In this document: in pieces, positions 2,798-33,419 of the stretch
Layout of the letters: each line of letters opens with the position of its first letter
How positions within the stretch are numbered: the first letter of the stretch is position 1
Origin: Peptococcaceae bacterium
GTDB lineage: Bacteria > Bacillota > Desulfitobacteriia > Desulfitobacteriales > Syntrophobotulaceae
Direction of reading: 5' to 3'
Assembly (NCBI GenBank): GCA_012839895.1
Contig: DUML01000022.1
Coordinates: 1 to 51,659, forward strand
Length of the DNA stretch: 51,659 nt
The notes under the pieces: generated by a model
The model's input: only the letters and a program-made list of their open reading frames with translations
Database searches by the model: none
Told to the model about the DNA's origin: nothing
Position numbers and translations under genes: made by a program

Positions 2798-4189
2798 CTA
2801 CTTCCCTATACAAAATCTAGAAAAAATAGTTTCTAATAAATCCTCTTGGACATTATGCCCCGTTATTGAAGAAACTTCTTCCAAAGCTGAACGAACATCA
2901 ATGGAAACCAAATCAAAGGGGACATTAGCATAAACAGCCTCGATTGCTTTTTCCAAAGAATGAATACTATTTTCTAAAGCCTGGATCTGGCGGATATTGG
3001 AGAGAAAAGGCTCCGTGGTCAAGGCTAATTTGCCTTCAAAGACACGGCGCAATATTTCATCTTCCAATTCGGTAAAACCAATATGATTTTTTACCGAGAA
3101 AGGTAAAGCAAAAACTCCATCCGGCAATAAAGCCGGATCCAAATGAAAATCAGGTTGTAAATCTATTTTATTTATTAGAACTATTGTTTTATCAGCATAT
3201 TCTTCCAAGATATTTCTTTCTTCTTTGGATAATCTCTTAACTTGCAATTCGGGAGCTTCCAGTAATAAGAGTATTATATCTGCCATATTTAAGGCTTTCC
3301 AAGCCCTTTCAATCCCAATCATTTCAACGGGATCTTCACTTTCCCTGATCCCGGCTGTATCAATTAAATGCAGAAGGATCTCTCCAACTTTAACATATTC
3401 ATGAATTTCATCTCTTGTTGTTCCGGGAATATCTGTAACAATCGCTCTTTCTTCTTTCAAAAAAGCGTTAAGCAAACTGGATTTACCGACATTAGGCCGG
3501 CCGGCAATCACTGTAGCCAAGCCTTCCCGAATTATTTTACCCGTTTTACTCCCTTTAAAAATTTCTATGGCTTTTCCTTTCACTTTTATTAGTTTTTCAT
3601 AGAGCTCAGATAAAGCCAAATCATCTATTTCGTCCTCCGGGAAATCCACCGTTGCTTCAATATAAGCCAATACATCTAAAATGTCCTGCCGGACTTCTTC
3701 AATTCGGGAAGAAAGTCCCCCTTCTAATTGCCTTACAGCTAAATTGGCGGAAAGTTCGGTACGAGCTTCTATTAAATCCACAATAGCTTCAGCTTGTACT
3801 AAATCCATCTTACCATTTAAAAATGCCCTTTTGCTAAACTCTCCGGCTTCTGCCAAACGGGCGCCTTGATGCAGGCAAGCTTCGATAATCCTGCGTACCG
3901 GGATCATTCCTCCATGACAATTAATTTCATAAACATCTTCGCCTGTATAAGAATAAGGCGCCTTCATCCTGCTTATTAAAACTTGGTCTATTTTCATATT
4001 TCCATCATAAAACCAACCAAGATGCAAAGTATAATTAGATCCTGACAACCACTTTTCTTTATTTTTAGGCTGGAAACAAGCTTTAACTATTTCACCTGCC
4101 TGTTTGCCGCTCAAGCGGATAATATGGATAGCTCCTTCACCAGGGGGAGTGGCTAAAGCCACTATAGTATCCATAGTCTCATCATTCAT
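2798..4189 (-). CDS. mnmE: tRNA modification GTPase MnmE (TrmE)
   Basis: MnmE is the GTPase half of the MnmE-MnmG wobble-uridine modification complex. The N-terminal tetrahydrofolate-binding domain is followed by an inserted G domain: G1 GRPNVGKSS near residue 220, G3 DTAG, and G4 NKID. The protein ends in FCIGK, the C-terminal C(I/L)GK motif whose cysteine is required for activity. The open frame extends to 4216. I chose the ATG at 4189 because GGAG at 4200-4203 lies 10 bases upstream of it, inside the longer frame, and because the family begins near MNDETMDTIVALATPPGEG. This gives 463 residues. A separate promoter sits at 4239-4266. Confidence 0.96.
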   Translation of the reverse strand: MNDETMDTIVALATPPGEGAIHIIRLSGKQAGEIVKACFQPKNKEKWLSGSNYTLHLGWFYDGNMKIDQVLISRMKAPYSYTGEDVYEINCHGGMIPVRRIIEACLHQGARLAEAGEFSKRAFLNGKMDLVQAEAIVDLIEARTELSANLAVRQLEGGLSSRIEEVRQDILDVLAYIEATVDFPEDEIDDLALSELYEKLIKVKGKAIEIFKGSKTGKIIREGLATVIAGRPNVGKSSLLNAFLKEERAIVTDIPGTTRDEIHEYVKVGEILLHLIDTAGIRESEDPVEMIGIERAWKALNMADIILLLLEAPELQVKRLSKEERNILEEYADKTIVLINKIDLQPDFHLDPALLPDGVFALPFSVKNHIGFTELEDEILRRVFEGKLALTTEPFLSNIRQIQALENSIHSLEKAIEAVYANVPFDLVSIDVRSALEEVSSITGHNVQEDLLETIFSRFCIGK

Positions 4190-20380: not shown

Positions 20381-21628
20381 TCACTCAGCCATTTCAAGTG
20401 CGATAGGTTCTTCCCGCTTGGATTTTTCAAACATGCCATCCATAACCAGTCCGGATTCAATCTGCGCATGGAAGTCCAGATGCGAGTAAATATCCGCCGT
20501 GGTCGAGAACGTGCTATGTCCAAGCCATATCTGGATTTGCTTCATGGATATCCCGTTTGCGAGCAGTAAGCTGGCGCATGAATGCCTTAAATCGTGGAAC
20601 CTGATTTTCTTCAGGTTGTTTTTTTCGAGTATCCAGCTAAAATGCTCCGTTACATAGTTAGGACGCATCAGCTTTCCGGTTTGGTCGACGCAGATATAAT
20701 CCAGATAGTCCCGGCAGTAAGAACGCTTGAACATTCTGCGGTACATTTCCTGCTTCTCTTTTTCCGCCCACAGAATTTTTTCAACGGATGGCAGCAGCGG
20801 AAGGGTGCGGAAGCTGGATTTTGTTTTGAGCACATCCTCGCCGACAGCCACTGCTTTGCCATCGACTGTGTCCTCAATGACCTTGTGCTTGATGGAGATG
20901 GTCTTTTGTTCCAGGTTGATCGCATCCCATTTCAGACCAAGCACTTCACTTCTCCGCAGACCATAGTAAGCGGCCAGTTTTACGCAGACTTCCAAGGGAT
21001 CGTCCTCTACCGCATCGAAGAGAGCCATCATTTCCTCCGCCGAATAAAACTGTGCCTGATACACATTCTTTTTCGGCCTGTCCACCCTGTCAGCAGGATT
21101 ACTGCTGATAATTCCCTTTTTCACAGCGTTCTGCAGCGCCCTGCGAAGCACCGCATGATAGTGAATTACCGTATTTGCCGTATACCCTTCATCAAAAATG
21201 GATTGATGAAAATCCTGAATATGCTGCGGCGTAACTTCCGCTAAGGTGATGTTCAGTTCTTTAAAGTACCGGCTGATTCGGCCGTCCAGCATGGTGCGGT
21301 AGCCTTTAAACGTGGTCTTGGATATGGTGGGTTTTGCCTGAATAAGCCATTTTTGAAGGTAATCCATAAAGGGAACATCCGCCTGCGGGTTCCTTTTCTC
21401 CTCGATCAATTCTCGGGCTCGTTCTTCTGCCGCCCGACGCTCCTTTTCCTCCTGCTCCCGTTCATATTCCAAACGGATTTGGTCAAAGGCTTTTTTGGCT
21501 TTTCTTTCGCTGGTTCCCTCTACCGGCAATCCGGTGGGAATCCACTTTGTCTTTCTTTTGCCGTCCACTTTTGTATAAAGGACAGCGTAATAAGTATTAT
21601 TTTTTTGCTGTAGGCATCCTGTTATCAT
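20381..21628 (-). CDS. Tyrosine-type site-specific integrase of the ICE
   Basis: A 415-residue tyrosine recombinase of the Tn916-integrase type catalyses integration and excision of the element. It has an N-terminal arm-binding domain (residues 1-45, basic, ending PTGLPVEGTSERKAK), a helical core-binding domain (about 90-185) and a catalytic domain. The catalytic residues are visible: Arg225 (YYGLRRSEVL), His345 and Arg348 (FHDLRHSCASLL), His371 (LGHST) and Tyr381 (DIYSHL). It reads toward the attachment junction, with the xis-like gene and mazF upstream. AGGAGG precedes the ATG. The stretch from 21629 to 21776 holds no gene. Confidence 0.96.
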   Translation of the reverse strand: MITGCLQQKNNTYYAVLYTKVDGKRKTKWIPTGLPVEGTSERKAKKAFDQIRLEYEREQEEKERRAAEERARELIEEKRNPQADVPFMDYLQKWLIQAKPTISKTTFKGYRTMLDGRISRYFKELNITLAEVTPQHIQDFHQSIFDEGYTANTVIHYHAVLRRALQNAVKKGIISSNPADRVDRPKKNVYQAQFYSAEEMMALFDAVEDDPLEVCVKLAAYYGLRRSEVLGLKWDAINLEQKTISIKHKVIEDTVDGKAVAVGEDVLKTKSSFRTLPLLPSVEKILWAEKEKQEMYRRMFKRSYCRDYLDYICVDQTGKLMRPNYVTEHFSWILEKNNLKKIRFHDLRHSCASLLLANGISMKQIQIWLGHSTFSTTADIYSHLDFHAQIESGLVMDGMFEKSKREEPIALEMAE

Positions 21629-21776: not shown

Positions 21777-21998
21777 TCAGCCAAGCTTGATATGGCACAT
21801 TTCTTCACCCAGCAGATATTCAATAACACATGCCTTTGGAATCTTATAGGTTCGTCCAACGCGAACGCTATGTATTTCCTTTTCCGCAAGCAGTTTGTAG
21901 GCCAGTTTACGGCTGATGCCGCCAAGCATTTCTCTTAATTGATTGACCTCGACTACATCGGGGTACTTTTCAAAAATTTTGATTTTGTCGTTCATCAT
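21777..21998 (-). CDS. Excisionase-like HTH DNA-binding protein
   Basis: A small protein of about 73 residues has a winged-helix layout: VVEVNQLREMLGGISRKLAYKLLAEKEIHSVRVGRTYKIPKACVIEYL (shown in parts by VNQLREMLGG and VRVGRTYKIPKACV). This is the excisionase/MerR-like fold that directs integrases toward excision. I chose the ATG at 21998 (or 21995) because AAAGGGG lies 5-8 bases upstream. The frame is open to an ATG at 22013 that overlaps the mazF stop (TAATG), so coupled translation is possible. Its place before int fits an Xis role, but a role in controlling mazF cannot be excluded. Confidence 0.75.
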   Translation of the reverse strand: MMNDKIKIFEKYPDVVEVNQLREMLGGISRKLAYKLLAEKEIHSVRVGRTYKIPKACVIEYLLGEEMCHIKLG

Positions 21999-22012
21999 GA
22001 CATCCCCTTTCA

Positions 22013-22381
22013 TTAAAAAAACGCCGGGTCAAGCCCAACGCTGATGGAAAGTGCCTGATTGATTTTTTTCATTTCATGACCGGAAAGAGTGCCAATCTTT
22101 TCTCTAAGGCGCATGCGGTCAATGGTGCGTATCTGCTCTAAAAGAGCAAAAGACTCTTTGGAGCAGCCGCAGGCAGTGCCGATGCGAACATGAGTAGGAA
22201 TATTGTTTTTCTCGGTTCTGCCGGTAATCGCACAGACAATGACCGTAGGGCTGTGACGATTTCCGACATTGTTTTGCAAAATAAGTACCGGACGGATTCC
22301 GCCCTGTTCGGAGCCCACAACGGGACTTAAATCGGCATAGAAAATATCCCCACGTTGTATGTTCATTTTATAATCTCTCAA
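22013..22381 (-). CDS. MazF/PemK-family toxin (endoribonuclease)
   Basis: The 122-residue protein closely follows Bacillus EndoA/MazF: RGDIFYADLSPVVGSEQGG, RPVLILQNNVGNRHSPTVIV, PTHVRIG, and LLEQIRTIDRMRLREKIG. This family cleaves mRNA at short sequences. The TTG at 22381 is the best start because AAAGGAGG lies 9 bases upstream; the ATG five codons later is badly spaced. No MazE-like antitoxin gene is visible on either side. The next gene overlaps its stop and encodes the excisionase-like protein. The 5' side is a long structured region with a terminator-like hairpin. Confidence 0.9.
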   Translation of the reverse strand: MRDYKMNIQRGDIFYADLSPVVGSEQGGIRPVLILQNNVGNRHSPTVIVCAITGRTEKNNIPTHVRIGTACGCSKESFALLEQIRTIDRMRLREKIGTLSGHEMKKINQALSISVGLDPAFF

Positions 22382-22414: not shown

Positions 22415-22718
22415 CAAAAATAGGATCGCCCTTGGGTAGTTGCTTCACTGTGAGAGCAGCTGAAAACAGGGCGATCCCATTGCTTCTGACATTAAGTTGT
22501 TTTTAGTGATAACGGTGCTTAATTCGACACTACTCCCCAAGCACAAAAGGCAATGGTCTGAACTGCGGCTGGCTTTACCGCATCATGGGAATTTCACCCC
22601 CGCCAGGATCTCTGCCGGCTGCCCTCATTGCGTGATCCCCATATGTGGGGGCTGTGACTGGACAGAAGTATCATGATAGGCTGACGGGGTCATTGCGATA
22701 CAGGCCGCCACAGCCTGT
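22415..22718 (-). ncRNA. Candidate structured leader or small RNA with attenuator upstream of mazF
   Basis: No long ORF is present, but many complementary arms nest on the minus strand: 22700-22705/22713-22718 (ACAGGC), 22637-22640/22647-22650 (four G-C), 22606-22610/22634-22638 (GGATC), 22570-22573/22602-22605 (TGGC), 22587-22589/22597-22599, 22565-22568/22578-22581, 22515-22520/22539-22544 (GTGCTT), and 22477-22483/22550-22556 (CCATTGC). The last is a 10-bp stem, 22423-22432/22468-22477, around an inner AGTTGCT hairpin, followed by TATTTTTG and then the mazF ribosome-binding site. The motif GGTGAAATTCCC recalls part of the FMN riboswitch, but I could not fit any riboswitch consensus. Confidence 0.55.
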
Positions 22719-22787
22719 TTCCCGGTCGGATGGGTACCGCTCTGCACCTTATTGGGCCGTCTTTGATAGTCTGGGAAGAGAAACGTA

Positions 22788-22892
22788 ATGAACAGAAAGA
22801 AAAAGCTGATTCATCTTGTTCTCATCACCATCCTACAGGTGGTCTTGGCGCATCCTCCGGAGTCGCTGTTCCTTTTGGGAGCCGTCAGCTAA
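22788..22892 (+). CDS. Small hydrophobic ORF (34 residues)
   Basis: ATG at 22788 opens a 34-residue frame: MNRKKKLIHLVLITILQVVL, then AHPPESLFLLGAVS. The basic start and hydrophobic stretch would fit a single-helix membrane peptide. The ribosome-binding site is weak (GGGAAGAG). It lies opposite the presumed start of the structured RNA and may be chance. Confidence 0.25.
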   Translation: MNRKKKLIHLVLITILQVVLAHPPESLFLLGAVS

Positions 22893-22935
22893 CGTATTCA
22901 GATCATCGGATATGAAATTTTCAAAGTACCCTTGA

Positions 22936-22981
22936 GGGAATAAAGAAACCCCTCACTACTAATCCAGTTTCGTGAGGGGGT
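22936..22981 (-). terminator. Terminator after the sigma-like gene
   Basis: CCCCTCAC (22949-22956) pairs with GTGAGGGG (22972-22979). On the minus strand TTTCTTTATT follows. It lies 16 bases after the stop at 22997. Confidence 0.8.
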
Positions 22982-22996
22982 CTACAAAAAGAATTT

Positions 22997-23416
22997 TTAC
23001 TTCTCCATCATTTTTTTGAGTTTCATCCGAATCTGACGTTCCCGATAGCTAATGGTCTGCTGTTTAATGCCTGTCTCTTTTTCCAGTTCTACCTGCGTTT
23101 TTCTCTGGAAATACAGAGCATAGATCAAATCGCGCTCATCCTTGCTTAGGCAGGCAAGACATTTATGTAGCTTTTCTGCCATAAGCTTGTCCGTGATGAT
23201 ATCCTCTACTCGTGGGGAAACGAGATCGGGCATCGAATCTTCGCCGTTGGTTTCCTCGGTGTCCAGAGCGCTGTAGTAAAAAACGCCATGTGCTATGTCC
23301 TTTTCTTCCAGATGACGCTCATGGCGCCTCATGCGGTAATATGTCAGGTAGACTTCTTGACTGACCGGTACAAGCTGACCTTGTACCTTGATTTGATATT
23401 TCTTTTTTTCTGCCAT
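22997..23416 (-). CDS. Sigma-70 region 4-like regulator of the ICE (Tn916 Orf7-like)
   Basis: A 139-residue protein whose C-terminal half has the sigma-70 region 4 HTH pattern: LSKDERDLIYALYFQRKTQV, then ELEKETGIKQQTISYRERQI. The N terminus (YQIKVQGQLVPVSQEVYLTYYRMRRHERHLEEKD) resembles the small sigma-like proteins of Tn916-type elements, which influence transcription of element genes. The open frame reaches 23458. I chose the ATG at 23416 because GGAGG lies 9 bases before it. A terminator follows. Confidence 0.82.
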   Translation of the reverse strand: MAEKKKYQIKVQGQLVPVSQEVYLTYYRMRRHERHLEEKDIAHGVFYYSALDTEETNGEDSMPDLVSPRVEDIITDKLMAEKLHKCLACLSKDERDLIYALYFQRKTQVELEKETGIKQQTISYRERQIRMKLKKMMEK

Positions 23417-23454
23417 ATGGCTTGTCCTCCATTTTCTGAAATCTTGATGGTGAG

Positions 23455-23520
23455 TCAAAATGTCAGAAGCGGAGGGGCTCGTCCATTTGCAAAGAAGAGG
23501 TGCAAGAGGTATGTAATCAC
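23455..23520 (-). CDS. Possible 21-residue leader peptide
   Basis: GTG at 23520 with AAGGAG upstream opens a 21-residue frame, MITYLLHLFFANGRAPPLLT plus F, ending 38 bases before the sigma-like gene's start. The good ribosome-binding site and position suggest a leader peptide, but coding is unproven. Confidence 0.35.
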   Translation of the reverse strand: MITYLLHLFFANGRAPPLLTF

Positions 23521-24064: not shown

Positions 24065-25660
24065 TTAATTCTCATCAATTTTTATTGTGCTACCTAATTG
24101 CGGTATGTCTGCCTGCTCCAAAACACTGTTAAAATCTTGTATCGACAGCCCGGGCATATTCTCTAATATATGGATGTATGTTCTATCCGGGTCTTTATAG
24201 TAATTTAATTTGTTGCCAGACTTTTCAAATATTTTTTCAATAATACGAAGATTCAGCCTTAAACCGACACATATTGCCATCAAAACATCCGTACCCATAT
24301 TGTTGTATTTATCATTTTTGATTTTTCCATGGTAGTTCTTATGGAGCAGCGTTTTTTCATTAAATATTTCAGGGTACTTCCATTTCCTGTTCTCCATCAA
24401 AAACCACAAGCATTGACACAGCGTGGTGGTCGGATCTCCTAATTTCTTGACAAGCTCTATCTCTTCGTTTTCATCATAGGATAAGATATGTTTGTGGAAT
24501 GCTGCATAAACCTCTTTCGGCTCATAATTGAAGGTTGCCTGATATTTTGGATGGAACGTCAGCATCCGCTGATCAATTCCAGTAACGCTATACAGGACAG
24601 CAAACCCCATGAAGTCCTTTTGAATGTTCCGATAGGTCGTATATTTTTGCTCATGTATATTAATAGCACATTGAGCCAAGTTCTTCTTTGCTTTTGTGGT
24701 TAAGTGTAGGTTTCCATTCTTTGTTGTTATGTATTTGGGATCTGCCAGTACAAAATAACCGTCGGCAAATACGAATCGCCCACCGCTGACCCACTCTTGG
24801 AGAGAAGAGTCCACGCGCAGCAATTGATACGCTTCTGCAGGAGTCAACGCAACGAATTCTCTGCGGTTATTAATTTCGGCAAAGACTGCATCATAATCCT
24901 CAAATTCAGAAATTTTCCCGAGAATCCCTACCTCAATAAGACGATATTTTACAGATGCCCTCGATACAATAAAAAATTCACTTAGGTCTTCAATTAAAAC
25001 ATCGCAGGAGGGGACAATATCGTTCTGTGGATTCTTATAACTATCAATCAGTTCCAGTGCTTTTTGCTTGAACGGTTCGTATGGCATCAGTACTCTCGGA
25101 GCTAACCTGTGTGCCTGCCATTCCAGCCATTTTACTTCGTTCTCCTTTGTCTTTTTTCCTTCCGGCGGCTCGTAGAATGTTTCCGATTGGCGGCACATAA
25201 TCGGATACAGTTTTTCAGAAGCCTCAGCATTTTTGAGTGCCAGAATTTCAAAATAAGTTTTATCCTTCTCCCAATGCAATGCCTCGTGAATTAGGGTATT
25301 GCGCTTAGAGCCTTCGCCATACAGTGCTTCGGAATCGGGATCGACTAATATAGTCCCAGCAGGAAAGAAGGTAGGATGAAATGTACCAGACTCGCGGTTG
25401 TAGACTTCAACTTCACCATCAAGCAATAAGCAGCATCCAAAAATGTCCAAGTTTCCGGAAAGGGATACTTCCTTTACTGTAAGGCCGACTTCCTGCAGAA
25501 TCTTATCAACGGGCAGCGGCATCGGCGTTGCAAGAGCCTCTTTACAATGCCTTGTCAGGTATTTTGTTGCGTAATCATCAAGGCGATTCTTTCCGAGAAT
25601 TAAAGCACCGGTTTTTTTATTGACATCAAAGATATCGCTCAATGTCGGTCTGCTCGTCAT
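24065..25660 (-). CDS. Large ImmA/IrrE-type metallopeptidase
   Basis: A 531-residue protein has an HEXXH zinc site, TLIHEALHWEKDK, near residue 130. The preceding region (PLPVDKILQEVGLTVKEVSL, then FFPAGTILVDPDSEALYGEG) is typical of ImmA/IrrE peptidases, which cleave repressors in phages and ICEs. A small HTH-like stretch follows (EDLSEFFIVSRASVKYRLIE), and about 250 C-terminal residues match nothing I recognise. The ATG at 25660 follows GAAGG, so the start overlaps the previous gene by 35 bases. It is last in the restriction-modification operon. A repressor-cleaving or phage-sensing role is inference. Confidence 0.8.
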   Translation of the reverse strand: MTSRPTLSDIFDVNKKTGALILGKNRLDDYATKYLTRHCKEALATPMPLPVDKILQEVGLTVKEVSLSGNLDIFGCCLLLDGEVEVYNRESGTFHPTFFPAGTILVDPDSEALYGEGSKRNTLIHEALHWEKDKTYFEILALKNAEASEKLYPIMCRQSETFYEPPEGKKTKENEVKWLEWQAHRLAPRVLMPYEPFKQKALELIDSYKNPQNDIVPSCDVLIEDLSEFFIVSRASVKYRLIEVGILGKISEFEDYDAVFAEINNRREFVALTPAEAYQLLRVDSSLQEWVSGGRFVFADGYFVLADPKYITTKNGNLHLTTKAKKNLAQCAINIHEQKYTTYRNIQKDFMGFAVLYSVTGIDQRMLTFHPKYQATFNYEPKEVYAAFHKHILSYDENEEIELVKKLGDPTTTLCQCLWFLMENRKWKYPEIFNEKTLLHKNYHGKIKNDKYNNMGTDVLMAICVGLRLNLRIIEKIFEKSGNKLNYYKDPDRTYIHILENMPGLSIQDFNSVLEQADIPQLGSTIKIDEN

Positions 25661-26390
25661 CTGTATCCTTCTCTTCTTTCTCCATATAGTCAAGAGGCAT
25701 GGTAGCCAGAATCTTTTTTACTTCTTTCCAAGTCGGGCAAAACTCTTCAACAAGCGCGTGGAATCGGTGTGTATGGTTTTTCTCCACTAAATGTACCAGT
25801 TCATGAATCACCACATATTCAAGACATTCCATTGGTTTCTTAGCAAGCTGAAGGTTAATCCATATCCTACGTTTATCAATATTGCATGTGCCCCACCTGG
25901 TTCTCATGTTTTTAATTCGGAAATCCTCGGCATGAATTCCCGTCTTTTTCTCACAGTCTATTGCAACAGTCTCCAGTATCCGCTTTAATTCCTGCCTGTA
26001 CCATTCGATGAGCAGTTTTTCTCTTGCCTTAGTGTTTGTTCCTTCTGGTACTGTCATGATTATTTTAGTCGGCGTCTTGACAATTTTATGACGTGTTTCC
26101 TCATATACTACCTGCAGACGGTAGGGCTTACCCCACAAATAATATGATTCTCCGGAAACATATTCTCGCTTGCTTTGACGTTCCTGTGCCAGCATCCTGT
26201 CTCTGACTTTAGTGATCTCCGGCAGTTTTCTAAGGACAAACAATTCGATATCCTCGTCATTTAATCCGGCTGGTGTGCTGACAGTAACATCACCCTCTGG
26301 CGGATTTACACGGATATATAGATTTTTCAAATTTTTCTTTCTGATAATCTTAATCGGTAATCCTCCGATTATCATTTCTTCATTACGCAT
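25626..26390 (-). CDS. YgjP/DUF45-type (M48-like) metallopeptidase
   Basis: A 254-residue protein of the YgjP/DUF45 family has N-terminal strands (MIIGGLPIKIIRKKNLKNLY), MRTRWGTCN, and the zinc site VIHELVHLVEKNHTHRFH. Such genes commonly end type I restriction operons. Their substrate is not firmly known. The start ATG overlaps the last 8 bases of hsdR, so translation is coupled, and its end overlaps the next metallopeptidase gene. Confidence 0.88.
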   Translation of the reverse strand: MRNEEMIIGGLPIKIIRKKNLKNLYIRVNPPEGDVTVSTPAGLNDEDIELFVLRKLPEITKVRDRMLAQERQSKREYVSGESYYLWGKPYRLQVVYEETRHKIVKTPTKIIMTVPEGTNTKAREKLLIEWYRQELKRILETVAIDCEKKTGIHAEDFRIKNMRTRWGTCNIDKRRIWINLQLAKKPMECLEYVVIHELVHLVEKNHTHRFHALVEEFCPTWKEVKKILATMPLDYMEKEEKDTDDEQTDIERYL

Positions 26391-29300
26391 CGTATTCTTC
26401 CTGTCTTTGTACTATATCGAAGACATTATTGGCTTCTTCCGTGGCTCTGTCTTCGGTATACATATGAAGCAATAATTTTTTATAAATAGCAAGTCTAATC
26501 CGCTGCTGTTTTTGAAAATTTCTTTTCCAACCTGGCTGGATGGAAGTGCGGATCGCACTGTCAACATCAATTGTCAGTTCGACATTATTTTCAAAATAAT
26601 CATACAGAGCACGCCTTGTTGCGCTATCTTTGACCCCGTCGGGATAGTTGCTGGTTGTTTCCGGATGAAGAATAGCCTCTGCCAACTCCACGACCTGTCT
26701 GAGGTATTCCTCATAACTCATCGCTTCAGTCTTGCGCTGCAGGATGATTTTCTTAAGCATCTCTGACAGTTTGCCGTAATACACACTGTTTGAACTCATT
26801 TTTTTGACAATTTCATGCTGTAAGTTGTTGTCAATCATCTCTGCTTTTGCTTCGTCAGTACCAGGCAAATCTTTTACTAAATCGACAGGCGTGGTGGTTT
26901 TGCCCTTTAGGAGCAACTCGACAATCGACATATTCCCCAACTCACTGATAACCCTGGAATCTTCGGCGCGGATGTAAGTGTCAAGGATATAGCGCATATC
27001 CGCCTCATAAGGCTTGAGGTCGATATAGTCGCAGCTTGCCAGCTTGATCATTTCTTTAATTTTGTTGTATCCGGAAATCTCTTCGCGCAGATGATTGACA
27101 TCATTCTCTGAATAGCCATACTCAGATACAAGCTTGTCACAACAATTCGCAAAAGAACGAGAGAGCGCCGCAGTTAACGTGTACAGCGTGTCCCTGCGCG
27201 CCGTCTTTTCATCGCCATCGCTGTCATCTCCGCAGAAATACTCAATGAAGTCGATATCAGCTTTTGGTGCCGGAACATTCTCGAATAATGCCTCCAGCGA
27301 TGCAAGCGTTCCTTCCATTTCTGACTTTGCTTCATCATAGCGGTTTTTAATAAGCCCTTCGACATCCTCTTTGTCAAACCCATCAAATGCCTCTGTCGTA
27401 TAATCAGAAACGGCAAGCTGAAGATTACGGAATAAATCCATGTAATCCACAATATAACCATAGTCCTTATCTTCGCCGTCTGGTCTGTTGACACGACAAA
27501 TGGCCTGAAAAAGATCGTGGTCACGCATGGATTTATCAATATACAGATAAGTGGCACTTGGGGCGTCAAAGCCCGTCAGCAATTTATCAACCACAATAAG
27601 AAGCTTCATTTGTGCTGGATTTTCTTTAAATTGCTTCTTCGCATCTTTTTCAAATTCCGAGAGCTTCTTGCCGCCAAGCATCCGCTCATAAATGGATTTC
27701 TTGTATTCTTCTTCGCTTTCCTGTGAAAGATCAGAAGTGGCCGTCCGCACACTTTGCGTGGTTGGCTCATAGGAAGTTACGACGGCACATTTTGTGAAGC
27801 CCATGCTCATAAAGATTTCCCAATACTTGCAGGCTTCGTAGATGCTATTTGCAACGAGCATAGCAGTACCGCGATCTTCTTTCAATCTCGGTTTGAGGCT
27901 CATATCAAAGACTATATCAGACGCAATCTTTTCCAAGCGTTGCTTTGAACTGTATAGTTTATTGATGGAAGTCCAGCTTTGTTTGAGCTGGAGCTTTGCG
28001 CGTTCTGTCAAGCCTTTTGTCTTCTGTTCAAACCACAAGTCAACTTTATCTTGACTGGACAAATCCTGGTCAATGTCTCTTGCCTCATACCGCAAGTCCA
28101 AAACAACACCATCAGCCACACCCTCATCAAATTTATAAGTATGAATATACGGGCCAAAGATTTCAAGGCTTGTTTTCTTATCTTTCTTAAGCAATGGAGT
28201 TCCTGTAAAGCCAATTAAGACTGCATCCGGCATCAGCGTTTTTACTGCTTCGTGCAGCTTGCCGGAATTGGTACGATGGCATTCGTCAATAAAAGCAACG
28301 ATGTTTCCCTTTGCCTTAAAGTCCTTCGGAAGATCCTTCAGAAGTTCTTTACGATATTGGTCGATATCCACCTGTTTACCTGCATTATGACCATATTTAT
28401 GAATGAGCGAGCAAACAATCGGGTCTTCGCTTTTGTCCAAAATATCACGAAGGTCCTTACAACTTTTTGCTCTGCGTACTTTTTCGTTTACGTCTATAAA
28501 AAGACTCTCAATCTGATCATCCAGCTCATCTCTGTCCGTGATAATTACAACGCGGCTGTCAGAAACATTTTCTATAATCCATTTTGTGAGCCATACCATA
28601 ATAAGAGATTTTCCGGAACCCTGCGTATTCCAAATGATACCGCCCTTTTTCTCAAGAATGCTCTTTCTCGCAGCGATATTAGCAAAATACTGGTTATGTC
28701 GAGCAATTTTCTTAATGCCGGCATCAAAAATCACGAAATCATGTATAAGAGATAAGAAGCGTTCTTTTTGGCAAAGTGAAATAATACCATCTCTCAGACG
28801 GTTTACTTCCTTAAGCTGCAGCATTTTAATTTTTTCAGACAAGGCGTCCGTCGCCTTTTTATCTTCTTTCCATTTAAGGTAGTACTTTTCTGGTGTGTTG
28901 ATCGTACCATAGAGCAATCCTTCAGCTTCATTTCCTGCAAATAAAAGCTGTGCGGCGCCAAAAAAATTGAGTATGTTTTCCTTTTTCTGATTCGTTAACA
29001 TTTGTCGAATGCCCTTGCCCGAGCTGACATAGGAACTCTTCAACTCAAATACACCCATAGCGATGCCGTTAACGTACAATACCAAATCAGGCCGCTTTCT
29101 TGTTACTTTGTCATATCGAAGGACGGACACTTCCTCCGCTACGGCAAAATCATTATTGTCGATATGATCCAAATCCCAATCGATATAATGCACGGTCTGG
29201 CGATGTCCATTGGCATCTTTCGTTCCCTGCCGACCGTAGCGAAGGAGAGAATAAACCTTCTGGTTAATCTCATAAAGCGAATCAGCCTGGTTATTGATCT

Positions 29301-29499
29301 TGCTTATGAGTTCATTGATGGCAATCTTAATCTGGTCATCGCCATACCCGCGCTTTTTCAGATTCGCTTTCAGCAGCTCTTCCTTGACAGGTGTGTTATC
29401 GATATCCTCCAGATTGCCGAGATAGGTGTAGCCAAGGTCATCAACCAGCCAGTGAAGAACTCTATTCTGCAATTTTTTCTCAGCATCAACCGTTGCCAT
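26383..29499 (-). CDS. hsdR: Type I restriction enzyme, restriction (R) subunit
   Basis: HsdR translocates and cuts DNA lacking the system's methylation. The 1038-residue protein has the PD-(D/E)XK nuclease region near residues 130-160 (KRPDLVLYVNGIAMGVFELK), the helicase Walker A region (WNTQGSGKSLIMVWL), the DEAD-type motif FIDECHRT, the motif GFTGTPLL, and the later motif LLTGFDAPSATYLYID. The C-terminal part is helical. AGGAGG precedes the ATG. It lies 12 bases after hsdS. Confidence 0.97.
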   Translation of the reverse strand: MATVDAEKKLQNRVLHWLVDDLGYTYLGNLEDIDNTPVKEELLKANLKKRGYGDDQIKIAINELISKINNQADSLYEINQKVYSLLRYGRQGTKDANGHRQTVHYIDWDLDHIDNNDFAVAEEVSVLRYDKVTRKRPDLVLYVNGIAMGVFELKSSYVSSGKGIRQMLTNQKKENILNFFGAAQLLFAGNEAEGLLYGTINTPEKYYLKWKEDKKATDALSEKIKMLQLKEVNRLRDGIISLCQKERFLSLIHDFVIFDAGIKKIARHNQYFANIAARKSILEKKGGIIWNTQGSGKSLIMVWLTKWIIENVSDSRVVIITDRDELDDQIESLFIDVNEKVRRAKSCKDLRDILDKSEDPIVCSLIHKYGHNAGKQVDIDQYRKELLKDLPKDFKAKGNIVAFIDECHRTNSGKLHEAVKTLMPDAVLIGFTGTPLLKKDKKTSLEIFGPYIHTYKFDEGVADGVVLDLRYEARDIDQDLSSQDKVDLWFEQKTKGLTERAKLQLKQSWTSINKLYSSKQRLEKIASDIVFDMSLKPRLKEDRGTAMLVANSIYEACKYWEIFMSMGFTKCAVVTSYEPTTQSVRTATSDLSQESEEEYKKSIYERMLGGKKLSEFEKDAKKQFKENPAQMKLLIVVDKLLTGFDAPSATYLYIDKSMRDHDLFQAICRVNRPDGEDKDYGYIVDYMDLFRNLQLAVSDYTTEAFDGFDKEDVEGLIKNRYDEAKSEMEGTLASLEALFENVPAPKADIDFIEYFCGDDSDGDEKTARRDTLYTLTAALSRSFANCCDKLVSEYGYSENDVNHLREEISGYNKIKEMIKLASCDYIDLKPYEADMRYILDTYIRAEDSRVISELGNMSIVELLLKGKTTTPVDLVKDLPGTDEAKAEMIDNNLQHEIVKKMSSNSVYYGKLSEMLKKIILQRKTEAMSYEEYLRQVVELAEAILHPETTSNYPDGVKDSATRRALYDYFENNVELTIDVDSAIRTSIQPGWKRNFQKQQRIRLAIYKKLLLHMYTEDRATEEANNVFDIVQRQEEYDA

Positions 29500-29511
29500 C
29501 TTGTTTCCTCC

Positions 29512-30735
29512 TTATACAGTCAGGCGCACGCGGCCTGTTAAGAGATCGTCCATTGCGCCCTCACGGATTTGTATCATTTTTTCTCGTTCAGCTTCCAAGC
29601 TTTCAATTTCTTTGTCCATTGCTGTCAGTACAGCGGAGATTGCTCTTTGCTCTTTAATATCTTTGGGCATCTCAAACTTAAAGTTCTTCAAATCCTTTTG
29701 GTACAAATGCTTTATAGTGGAACCTGCTGACAGAATATCAATAAACTCTTTGAATACAGACGATATAAGCACCCTATAAAGGAAAGCAGGTGCAAGTTGC
29801 GGCTCCGTTCTAAAAACAAATACCCCACTATTCAATGTAGCTGGTTTGCTTAAGGCAGGGACCATTGCGACTTTTCCTATCGTACCATCTTTTGTAACAA
29901 GCACATCATTCTCTGTGACTTGAATATTTACATCCATATCATATCGTTCTTTAGAAACATACGATATATTATTTAAGGTAATTGTCCCATCCTTAAAATC
30001 TGTGCCACTAATTAAATAGCTGTACCCACTTCGCAAATACTCATGCTTTTTGAGACCTTGCCACCCGATCCTTGCCTTAGGAACAATAACCTGATTGAAA
30101 GACACCTTTACCCAATCATCATGAAATCCATCAAGCCTTGTCCTGCCGCTAATCAAATCCTCCAGCGCACCATCGCGGATGCTCTTTTTCTTTTCAATCA
30201 AATCGGAAAGGTCATCAATGTAGGCATCAAACTGTGAAAGGGTTCGAGCGATTTCTTCTTGCTCCGGAAGAGAAGGCAGAAACACCGATACCTTTTTCAC
30301 AACTTCCTTATTCAGATTTTGTACGCCGCTTCCAGCAGCAAATGCCTCATACTGCCTTTGCACATACGATGAGGAGAGCAAATAATAAAGAAACTCGTCA
30401 TCGGCTTCCGTTTGAAAATCATATAGGCGCAACCAGCCGTCATGTATACATCCGTCAATGCTTAGAATATAAGGCCTTCCAAAACTCATTGAATTTGAAA
30501 GTATAAAATCTCCGGGGAAAACGCTGACAGAATGTGCCGCACCTTGCAGTGTTATTTTTTCTTTTGTGGAGACGATATACTTTCCATACCTTGGTGCATC
30601 ACCGATTTTAATCCAATTCACACCGTCAGTACTTGATGTCAAATAGCTTTCAATCGGACGTGGGGAGGCACCTCGCTTAATTTTCATGAAGTTATTAAAA
30701 GACTTCTCTTTCCAATCTTGCGGATAAGTTACCAT
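29512..30735 (-). CDS. hsdS: Type I restriction enzyme, specificity (S) subunit
   Basis: HsdS recognises the split target sequence for both methylation and cutting. The 407-residue protein has two target-recognition domains (about 1-150 and 210-355), each followed by a helical spacer: LPEQEEIARTLSQFDAYIDD with SIRDGALEDLISGRTRL, and IKEQRAISAVLTAMDKEIES with QIREGAMDDLLTGRVRL. Length and layout are those of a full, functional S subunit. It overlaps hsdM by 7 bases. I saw no second S gene, recombinase or long repeat that would suggest phase switching. Confidence 0.95.
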   Translation of the reverse strand: MVTYPQDWKEKSFNNFMKIKRGASPRPIESYLTSSTDGVNWIKIGDAPRYGKYIVSTKEKITLQGAAHSVSVFPGDFILSNSMSFGRPYILSIDGCIHDGWLRLYDFQTEADDEFLYYLLSSSYVQRQYEAFAAGSGVQNLNKEVVKKVSVFLPSLPEQEEIARTLSQFDAYIDDLSDLIEKKKSIRDGALEDLISGRTRLDGFHDDWVKVSFNQVIVPKARIGWQGLKKHEYLRSGYSYLISGTDFKDGTITLNNISYVSKERYDMDVNIQVTENDVLVTKDGTIGKVAMVPALSKPATLNSGVFVFRTEPQLAPAFLYRVLISSVFKEFIDILSAGSTIKHLYQKDLKNFKFEMPKDIKEQRAISAVLTAMDKEIESLEAEREKMIQIREGAMDDLLTGRVRLTV

Positions 30736-33419
30736 TTGTACCCCATCCTTTCCAGAGCAGTCATGACCGCTTCTCTTGATTTTGCCGTTCTGTCCTCAAT
30801 CTCTCTAAGCGTATGCTCATAGCGTTTGGCAATGAGAAGTACCTTGGAAGACAGCATATTCAGCATCTGCTCAATCTCTCCTCTGACATCCGCTTCGAGT
30901 TTCGCCATCCACTTCATGTCAAAGAGCAGATATTTTATTTCTTCTACAGTAAGTTCCCCGTATTTGGCATGAACTTTGTCATCAAGGGCCTTTTGCGCTT
31001 CTTTTATAGCTTTGTCAGTTTCCTCTTTCTCTGTCATTTTAGCCTGATACGCAAGCAAAGCATCGTACTCTTCTTTATAAATATCGGGAACAACGGCGGA
31101 ATCCATAGCAAGCTTTAATGCCACTTTCAGTTTGGCTTTTCCGAAAGTGCCATTCTTGTTCCTGATGTCGAATTCAGCCAATTCCGGAGTTTTGCTGATG
31201 AGCGTCTCCATCTCGCCGATGTTTCCTTTGTCAAAGAGAGCCACCAGCTTTGTCATGGCATCCATAGCCACGGAGGTCTTCTTGCTTTCCAGTTCCTTCA
31301 GCCGCTTATTAAGATTTGCCTTCGGGATGCTGTCGCCCTTGTCATTGAGCGCTTCCTTAAGCAACCCGTCGTCGCCGGATTCTTCTTCACGCATTTCACC
31401 CAATTCGGCTTCCAGAGTTGCAGACTGTTCCCTTAAAGCATTGATGGCAGCCAGTTCTTCAAGAAAATAAACTGTCTCGATAATTTCTCTTGGGATCAAA
31501 ACACCATCAAAGGATTTCACTTTGGAGGTATCGTCTACGGAAACAGTTTCGCCGCTCTCGTCTTTGATTTTTTTCTGTGCATACTCGTATTCAATTTCTC
31601 TGCCGGCCTCATAGCCATCAGCTTTAATAGCATATACATCATCCTGCAGCTTTGCATTCCAGTAATTCATCAGGCAGTCGTAAACGTCATAATTGTCAAG
31701 AAGCAGCGCTGGTTTATATGCATCCAAAAGAATGGAGGAGATGGTGCGAATAAGTTGCTTAGGGTTCGTTTCACTGTCAATATTCAGCAGAATGCTTTTG
31801 ACTTCATCACGCCATTGTGTAAAAATTGTATCGACTTCGTTTCTTTTCTCGTTTTGCACATTGACGTCCTGCCGGATAGCTTCCTCTATATTTTCAGTGG
31901 GGAGGGCAAGATGGTAAATATTTTGCCGCTCGTCCGTGCAAGTGAAGATTTTTTGTTTCAAAGCCGGAGAAATATTCCAAAGTCTCTTAAGCGAGTCAAT
32001 ATCCGTTCCCGGAATACCGCCTTTCAAGTGTGCGGCAATATTCTGCGGCAATGTATCATCAATCTTTTGTATGTAACGGGGTACATTCAAATTGCCGGCA
32101 TTTTTCTCCAGAATATCTGTGTATTTCACAAAACGGGAATAGCCTTCAATTGTTTCTTGGTTGATAAAAGTCCGGACAATCTTCTCAATATCCTGTTCAC
32201 GCAGTCTATTCTTATTGCCATCCTTCTTAAAACCACGGCTGGCATCTATTAAGAAAATTCCCTCTCTTGTATCCGCATTCTCTTTGTCAATAATAACAAT
32301 GCAGGCGGGGATGCCAGTGCCGTAAAAGAGATTTGCCGGAAGGCTGACAATGCCTTTAATATATCGTTTCTTAAGAATTGCAATGCGGATTGTTTCTTCA
32401 GAATTACCTCTGAACAATATGCCGTGAGGCATGATGATGCCTGCTTTGCCATTGCTGTCAAGTGATTTCAGAACGTGTAAAAACCAGGCATAGTCTCCAT
32501 TCTTTTCGGGAGGAATGCCGTATCCGTCAAATCGTTTATATTTATCTTCTGTTGCTTTGATACCATCGCTCCATGATTTGTCCGAGAACGGGGGATTCAT
32601 GACAATAAAGTCAAACTTTTTGAGTTCTCCAAAATCGTCTGTAAAAGCGGGGGAAGCCAGGGTATTGCCTTTTTTAATTTCACCTGTACCTTTTTGATGG
32701 AGAATCAAATTCATTCTTGCTAAGCCCGCTGTAGCGTTATCTTTCTCTTGCCCGAAAATGGTTACAATTGAATCGCCATTTTCATCTACCGGCGCTTCAT
32801 CTGCGGCACGAATCAGTAGGCTGCCGCTACCTGCCGCAGGATCGTACAAGGTCCATTTCTTTGTTGGTGTCTGCTTGATGTTGCCAATCCCGATCAGTCT
32901 TGCAATAATACGGGAAACCTCACTCGGCGTGTAGAACTGTCCCTTGCTCTTGCCAGATTCCTGGGCAAATTTCATCATAAAGTATTCATAAGCATCCCCG
33001 ATGATATCATCGCCGCTCGCTCTGTTATTCTTGAAGTCAATCGCCTGATTCTGGAATACGGCAATTAAGCCGGATACCTTGTCCACCAATTCCTTGCCGG
33101 AACCCAACTCATCCGGATTATTAAAGCTGACATCAGGAAGTGAGCCTTGCAGCTTGTTATCCTCCAAGAATTTCTGGATAATTTTGTCTACACGTTCTCC
33201 AACATCACTCTTTCCTTTTGCTTTGACTAAATCATCAAAAGATGCACCGTTACTGATTTTAAACTCCGCAAACGGCTGCCCTTTATACCTGTCCGATACA
33301 TACTTAAAGAACAACAACACAAGCACATAATCTTTATACCGAGCTGGTTCAACGCCGCCCCTTAATTTATTGCAAGCCTCCCACAAAAGGGAATACAATT
33401 CTGATTTTTTCACGGCCAT
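30729..33419 (-). CDS. hsdM: Type I restriction enzyme, DNA adenine methyltransferase (M) subunit with long C-terminal extension
   Basis: HsdM is the N6-adenine methyltransferase. Motifs are the N-terminal CNKLRGGVEPARYKDYVLVL region, GQFYTPSEVSRIIARLIG, the SAM motif YDPAAGSGSLLIRA near residue 190, and the catalytic NPPF in FIVMNPPFSDKSW. Core M subunits are about 500 residues. This one has 896, with a strongly charged, coiled-coil-rich C-terminal half after residue 500 (for example AAINALREQSATLEAELGEM). The extension is in frame with no stop. Such long forms occur in some type I systems, but its job is unclear. Confidence 0.95.
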   Translation of the reverse strand: MAVKKSELYSLLWEACNKLRGGVEPARYKDYVLVLLFFKYVSDRYKGQPFAEFKISNGASFDDLVKAKGKSDVGERVDKIIQKFLEDNKLQGSLPDVSFNNPDELGSGKELVDKVSGLIAVFQNQAIDFKNNRASGDDIIGDAYEYFMMKFAQESGKSKGQFYTPSEVSRIIARLIGIGNIKQTPTKKWTLYDPAAGSGSLLIRAADEAPVDENGDSIVTIFGQEKDNATAGLARMNLILHQKGTGEIKKGNTLASPAFTDDFGELKKFDFIVMNPPFSDKSWSDGIKATEDKYKRFDGYGIPPEKNGDYAWFLHVLKSLDSNGKAGIIMPHGILFRGNSEETIRIAILKKRYIKGIVSLPANLFYGTGIPACIVIIDKENADTREGIFLIDASRGFKKDGNKNRLREQDIEKIVRTFINQETIEGYSRFVKYTDILEKNAGNLNVPRYIQKIDDTLPQNIAAHLKGGIPGTDIDSLKRLWNISPALKQKIFTCTDERQNIYHLALPTENIEEAIRQDVNVQNEKRNEVDTIFTQWRDEVKSILLNIDSETNPKQLIRTISSILLDAYKPALLLDNYDVYDCLMNYWNAKLQDDVYAIKADGYEAGREIEYEYAQKKIKDESGETVSVDDTSKVKSFDGVLIPREIIETVYFLEELAAINALREQSATLEAELGEMREEESGDDGLLKEALNDKGDSIPKANLNKRLKELESKKTSVAMDAMTKLVALFDKGNIGEMETLISKTPELAEFDIRNKNGTFGKAKLKVALKLAMDSAVVPDIYKEEYDALLAYQAKMTEKEETDKAIKEAQKALDDKVHAKYGELTVEEIKYLLFDMKWMAKLEADVRGEIEQMLNMLSSKVLLIAKRYEHTLREIEDRTAKSREAVMTALERMGYKW

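Follow-up and report, generated by a model that had tools for sequence, protein, structure and literature searches.

What does a gene-free stretch of DNA encode when it stands ahead of the toxin, excisionase and integrase genes of a mobile element, and how might it act on them? The question is raised by a locus in contig DUML01000022.1 of a Peptococcaceae bacterium (assembly GCA_012839895.1), which was analysed over a stretch of 51,659 nucleotides, referred to here as the window. Between the stop of a sigma-like open reading frame (22997) and the start of mazF (22381) the minus strand holds no plausible gene. An earlier note, made from the sequence alone, had described part of this region (22790 to 22415) as a minus-strand leader rich in complementary arms, laid out as a riboswitch or attenuator controlling mazF, xis and int together. 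Our analysis bears out both the absence of a gene and the placement of a structured leader from which all three genes could be controlled, and points to a different mode of action.

Results

All RNA features of the window described below, and the genes that flank the RNA, lie on the minus strand. Upstream of the RNA is a gene for an Orf7-like sigma-70 region 4 protein (22997..23458). The first gene after the RNA is the pemK/mazF toxin gene (22013..22381; PF02452, E 1.6e-34), followed by an excisionase-like gene (21777..22013; HTH_17/TIGR01764) and a tyrosine integrase gene (20381..21628; PF00589, E 1.5e-22) that adjoins tRNA-Ser. Genes for a MobL relaxase, a T4SS coupling protein (T4CP) and a VirB4/TraG-type ATPase are all on the same strand as the RNA, from which the conjugation genes can be reached solely across the circle junction. 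An integrase next to tRNA-Ser together with a MobL relaxase, a coupling protein and a VirB4/TraG-type ATPase indicates that this is most likely an integrative and conjugative element, the far end of which lies beyond the contig. A close relative with an integrase 89.8% identical, and with a match to the RNA family described below, is found in a complete genome (G069), where the gene order is the same between tRNA-Ser and, some 61 kb further on, a candidate repeat (29 bp, 86%) of the tRNA 3' end. At G069:C1 ~16.8-78.2 kb and beyond there are two integrase genes, each adjoining a tRNA-Ser end, which suggests a tandem insertion of elements at one tRNA-Ser. The element also carries cargo, comprising type I restriction-modification genes (HsdR-, HsdS- and HsdM-like; 26383-33419) and a YgjP-like metallopeptidase gene (25626-26390).

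An Rfam scan of the whole window returned above cut-off only tRNAs and RF02913, "pemK RNA", which has the Rfam type 'Cis-reg' and was the sole family found in the leader itself. The cmscan match (22677-22583) covers all 61 model positions, with 68.5 bits and an E-value of 2.5e-10, the gathering cut-off being 34.8 bits. The earlier note, which had held that no known riboswitch consensus fits, was wrong about the absence of a known family, and had named a strong match of this kind as an outcome that would count against its reading. It had also likened GGTGAAATTCCC to a piece of the FMN riboswitch, but this sequence is helix 3 of RF02913, and neither FMN nor any other known riboswitch was matched in the leader.

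The same model matches a Tn916-like element of pCF10, known as Tn925, at L161:3903-4003 (55 bits, E 7e-9). In the annotation of this element an orf8-type gene stops at L161:3620, and xis begins at 4081. The 452-nt region between orf8 and xis of Tn916, canT, brings about processive antitermination in cis, in one orientation only, and acts on heterologous terminators (Wirachman & Grossman 2024, PMC11658703). Two mutations, canT(S3), in which ATA is changed to TGC from nucleotide 283 after the orf8 stop, and canT(del162), in which nucleotides 229-390 are removed, each abolish reporter antitermination and lower conjugation about 100-fold, and an older Tn5 insertion at codon 41 of the antisense orf5 also blocked conjugation (PMC11658703). 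On the pCF10 element, nucleotide 283 after the orf8 stop is L161:3903 and positions 3903-3905 read ATA; the S3 site is exactly the first three positions of the RF02913 model. The del162 deletion corresponds to L161:3849-4010 and covers the entire match, and the Tn5 insertion computes to about L161:3976, within it. Since the model starts at the S3 site and del162 spans the whole match, the "pemK RNA" is, on the correspondence of sequence and position, the core of the cis-acting processive antiterminator canT.

The window RNA occupies a canT-like position, between the Orf7-like sigma gene and xis/int and in the same orientation, which matches the layout of the pCF10 element, and its homology to Tn916 spans the functional region of 5' domain, long-range helix and core. 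The S3 site falls within a block, AUAAUGAUAC, which in the window reads AUCAUGAUAC (an S3 hit is not a published criterion). The triplet itself is AUC, as against AUA in Tn916, and C is the third base in a few other relatives too.

In the window the core consists of AUCAUGAUACUUC, P1, P2, P3 (GGGUGAAAUUCCC) and AUGA (22583..22677), and is followed, outside the Rfam model, by hairpin P4 (UGCGGU...GCCGCA; 22564..22582), with two-sided changes at 6/6 pairs. RNAalifold gave little on alignments of mixed length, and helices were therefore assessed by counting pairs and by permuting cognate and non-cognate strands. Across P1-P3 and P4, 94.5% of cells are paired, and covariation, the check that the earlier note had proposed, is strong (0.667, against 0.256 when shuffled and at most 0.18 when slid). 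Ahead of the core lies hairpin P0 (ACAGGC-UGUGGCG-GCCUGU; 22700..22718), flanked by a GAGCGA-like conserved stretch (22743-22737) upstream and by GCAAUGA (22696-22690) downstream. Its stem is kept in relatives, with at least 6 bp in 94% of 48 loci compared with 54% of shuffles, and with 44 different arms. The leader from 22790 to 22382, which holds the complementary arms described in the earlier note, folds moderately better than dinucleotide shuffles (-136.7 vs -121.2 kcal/mol; z -2.5, 3/100 shuffles); the part from boxA to P4 taken alone is no more stable than shuffles (z -0.7), and the folding energy of the whole leader is therefore weak evidence.

Beyond P4 lie two further hairpins. P5 (GUGCUUGGGGAGUAGUGUCGAAUUAAGCAC; 22515..22545) is conserved in elements of the window type and of the serine-recombinase type and was not seen in Tn916. 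P6 (22405..22496), which precedes the ribosome-binding site in the same two types, folds at -39.1 kcal/mol (z -6.6 against dinucleotide shuffles) and comprises a 10-bp stem (GGATCGCCCT / AGGGCGATCC, then TATTTTTGTG), an outer stem (CUUAAUG/CAUUAAG) and a conserved internal loop. The earlier note was right about the 10-bp stem, its T-rich tail and the mazF ribosome-binding site behind them (AAGGAGGATCG, 22397-22387), but the tail is part of the larger P6 (outer stem CTTAATG/CATTAAG in the DNA), and a U-tract after P6 is not conserved in relatives. A second pairing is available to the 5' arm of P6 (B, GCAAUGG, within 22496-22468): it is complementary to a heptamer, A (CCAUUGC, 22556-22550), and pairing of the two precludes the inner stem. 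Many serine-recombinase elements retain this alternative, which Tn916 lacks.

Such an arrangement could be read as an attenuator, in which P6 would terminate transcription or switch translation ahead of mazF or of the first recombinase gene, while the A:B pairing would be the anti-hairpin and the upstream RNA the sensor. It would account for the position of the very stable P6 at the ribosome-binding site and for an A:B complementarity that persists with changes in 15 distinct combinations (6.53 of 7 pairs for cognate against 6.13 for non-cognate arms, permutation p 0.003), although this effect is small and relatedness is not removed from the statistic. However, the hairpin is conserved without a conserved U-tract behind it, and it was not listed by a terminator scan, the loop limit of which (8) would partly miss P6; a simple intrinsic-terminator attenuator was rejected on these two counts. 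P6 is moreover absent from Tn916, the RNA of which antiterminates anyway. We thus regard an attenuator as unlikely, although P6 may have a subordinate attenuating effect on the first gene. That the Tn916 homologue is a proven antiterminator (PMC11658703) and that the final hairpin has no conserved U-tract argue for antitermination rather than for a riboswitch or attenuator, and the direction of control supposed in the earlier note was wrong. As Tn916 is without P5 and P6, the 3' part of the leader may do something else.

At the other end the boundary of 22790 proved too narrow, the conserved RNA starting near 22930 and reaching P4 (22564). It begins with a boxA-like motif, GGTACTTTGAAAA (22918..22930), that differs from the consensus TGYTCTTTGAMAA by two mismatches and by itself is not significant. 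The motif is conserved upstream of the core in relatives, where it starts mostly 127-257 bases ahead of the core, and 52/57 loci score at least 14/20, against 41/2366 control windows. Because the window genome is a draft without 16S, the rRNA boxA was compared through another member of its family, whose genome holds a near-identical boxA, TGTTCTTTGAAAACTG, in the rRNA spacer; in a more distant genome, G107, no clear rRNA boxA was found.

The motif opens a conserved 5' domain (boxA ... UACGUU ... AGCGA ... GCGCCAAGACC; 22841..22929), matched at 39.9 bits (E 7e-11) by R1, a sequence model trained on 24 elements, with neither Tn916 nor any of the window's group among them. R1 also finds the Tn916-like element (E 1.2e-6), and its 14 matches in the 186 kb searched all fall where they are expected in the 14 elements. 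A long-range helix, PL, joins the stretch behind UACGUU (GCUGACGG, 22882..22889) to the stretch directly before the core and just ahead of its conserved block (CCGUCAGC, 22680..22687; pairing 22687-22680), the strands in the Tn916-like element being CGAUAAGAA and UUCUUAUCG. Cognate strands have a complementarity of 8.3 compared with 4.8 for non-cognate ones, and none of 100,000 permutations was as good (18 sequence clusters, 53 loci); with a cruder anchor the values were 7.0 and 4.9.

Between the sigma-like gene and the RNA, the window and about half of its relatives have a strong terminator-like hairpin at the same position (CCCCTCAC/GTGAGGGG, then TTTCTTTATT; 22949..22982 in the window). It precedes boxA in 24/50 loci, the window included, compared with 1.2% of shuffles, and ends mostly about 15-20 bases before boxA. 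With this hairpin in place a promoter would hardly fit between the sigma-like gene and boxA; transcription could reach the RNA either by read-through of the hairpin or from a start inside that stretch. The boxA-like CTTTGAMAA might be a promoter -35 element, with the RNA starting further downstream and boxA untranscribed, a reading that is compatible with antitermination by the remainder of the RNA. The motif does contain TTGAMA, and some loci show promoter-like spacing. Nevertheless there is no conserved -10, and several loci have an insertion of about 18-25 bases right behind GAAAA, by which the spacing is broken while TGCTCTTTGAAAA is kept. We consider the -35 reading improbable and treat the motif as part of the RNA.

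RF02913 occurs in 20/83 genomes of the class, in 26/398 sampled across the phylum and in 80/130 of one family, with up to six copies per genome, and was found in 0/14 control genomes. Neighbours were counted at the 65 loci with enough downstream sequence, the protein families checked including Tn916-Xis and the Orf8-type HTH_16. A recombinase lies just downstream, within 1.5 kb, in 59/65 (22 tyrosine integrases and 37 serine recombinases), and a sigma-like (Orf7-like) gene lies upstream in 51/65. In L062, L065, L078 and many others the RNA is followed by at least three consecutive serine recombinase reading frames, of which the first is short. At two loci, L107 and L131, ParA-like genes rather than a recombinase follow, which suggests that the RNA is used in other mobile-element operons too. 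A vanB element on pMG2200, of the Tn1549 type, has a match at L168:2998-3095 (57.8 bits), flanked by an orf8-like gene and by xis; the boxA of this element is weak. The mazF gene, by contrast, adjoins the RNA in 7/65 loci and is absent there in 58/65. The window RNA does sit upstream of pemK, as the family name implies, but with so few such relatives this location does not define RF02913, and it is with the recombination module, rather than with the toxin, that the RNA belongs.

These neighbourhoods also bear on two further readings. A riboswitch, in which the core would bind a small molecule and control the recombinase module, would suit the compactness of a multi-stem core in which many unpaired bases are invariant, and also the 'Cis-reg' type given by Rfam. 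Yet the RNA is found in leaders of mobile-element recombinases, rarely of partition genes, with no adjoining metabolic gene, and canT is active in B. subtilis when promoter and terminators are both foreign, and has no known ligand (PMC11658703), which makes a riboswitch very improbable. The earlier note's suggestion of a separate small RNA serving as the missing antitoxin of MazF, prompted by a mazF without an evident antitoxin gene, and which the family name might seem to favour, is hardly tenable when the toxin is no constant neighbour and the same RNA stands in Tn916 with no toxin gene adjoining it.

Discussion

The window RNA is a member of a known family; what is new is its putative functional assignment. 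By homology with canT, it is very probably a processive antiterminator leader of the canT type, the nascent RNA modifying polymerase so that transcripts through mazF, xis and int would run on into the conjugation genes of the excised circle. According to this model, transcription entering from the side of the sigma-like gene would produce an RNA from the boxA-like site (~22930) to P4 (22564), the 5' domain of which would be closed by the long-range helix PL. Nus factors would probably be recruited at boxA, NusB-S10 being the presumed partner, and the folded nascent RNA would stay with RNA polymerase, which would then ignore intrinsic terminators. The transcript would pass mazF, xis and int and, in the excised circle, cross the joined ends into the conjugation operon. 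We infer activity of the window RNA by analogy with canT, and it would presumably serve the whole operon.

A broader proposal, which in our judgement could equally well prove right or wrong, is that all RF02913 RNAs form one class of large boxA-containing RNA antiterminators, a common start-up module of Bacillota mobile elements with unrelated recombinases (tyrosine and serine integrases, some near parA), which would recruit the NusB-S10 rRNA antitermination factors of the host and add a polymerase-bound RNA fold. An antiterminator role would explain why one RNA precedes unrelated recombinases, including that of the vanB element. The link made here joins a structured-RNA family without an assigned function to a proven antiterminator; our literature search found no paper connecting RF02913 with Tn916, and the canT paper (PMC11658703) makes no mention of Rfam, boxA or NusB. 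RF02913 thereby gains a function, and canT, for which structure predictions were hard to interpret (PMC11658703), gains a structure supported by covariation. The action of canT on polymerase becomes directly testable through mutants of boxA and helix PL.

Several known systems invite comparison. The conAn system of pLS20 works in a similar manner, as processive antitermination with an RNA component at the start of a Gram-positive conjugation operon (PMC8955417), but conAn also needs the protein ConAn1, and homology was rejected, the pLS20 conjugation region having no match to RF02913 or to the 5'-domain model R1. A BsrG-family RNA match (L166:33437-33713, 72 bits) is present in pLS20, and its conjugation region also has a PemK/MazF gene. 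The put RNA of phage HK022 and EAR of the B. subtilis eps operon likewise work as RNA-only antiterminators (as cited in PMC11658703); as to sequence relation, the Rfam scan of the leader gave RF02913 only. With rRNA and lambda nut antitermination, which relies on boxA and NusB-S10, the window RNA shares a boxA-like motif at its 5' end, but here a large structured RNA follows boxA, and NusB/S10 would be putative partners. Within RF02913 the window RNA scores well above the gathering cut-off, although Rfam models 61 positions, whereas the conserved RNA of the window extends over about 370 bases and most relatives lack an adjoining pemK/mazF. The closest counterpart is canT of Tn916. The window differs from it in having mazF between the RNA and xis, in having the extra hairpins P5 and P6, in the AUC of the S3 triplet, and in that no orf8-like gene was found adjoining the RNA. 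The two nevertheless are homologous RNAs in a homologous place (sigma/orf8 - RNA - xis - int), with core, 5' domain, long-range helix and P4 in common, and the S3 and del162 mutations of canT fall on conserved parts.
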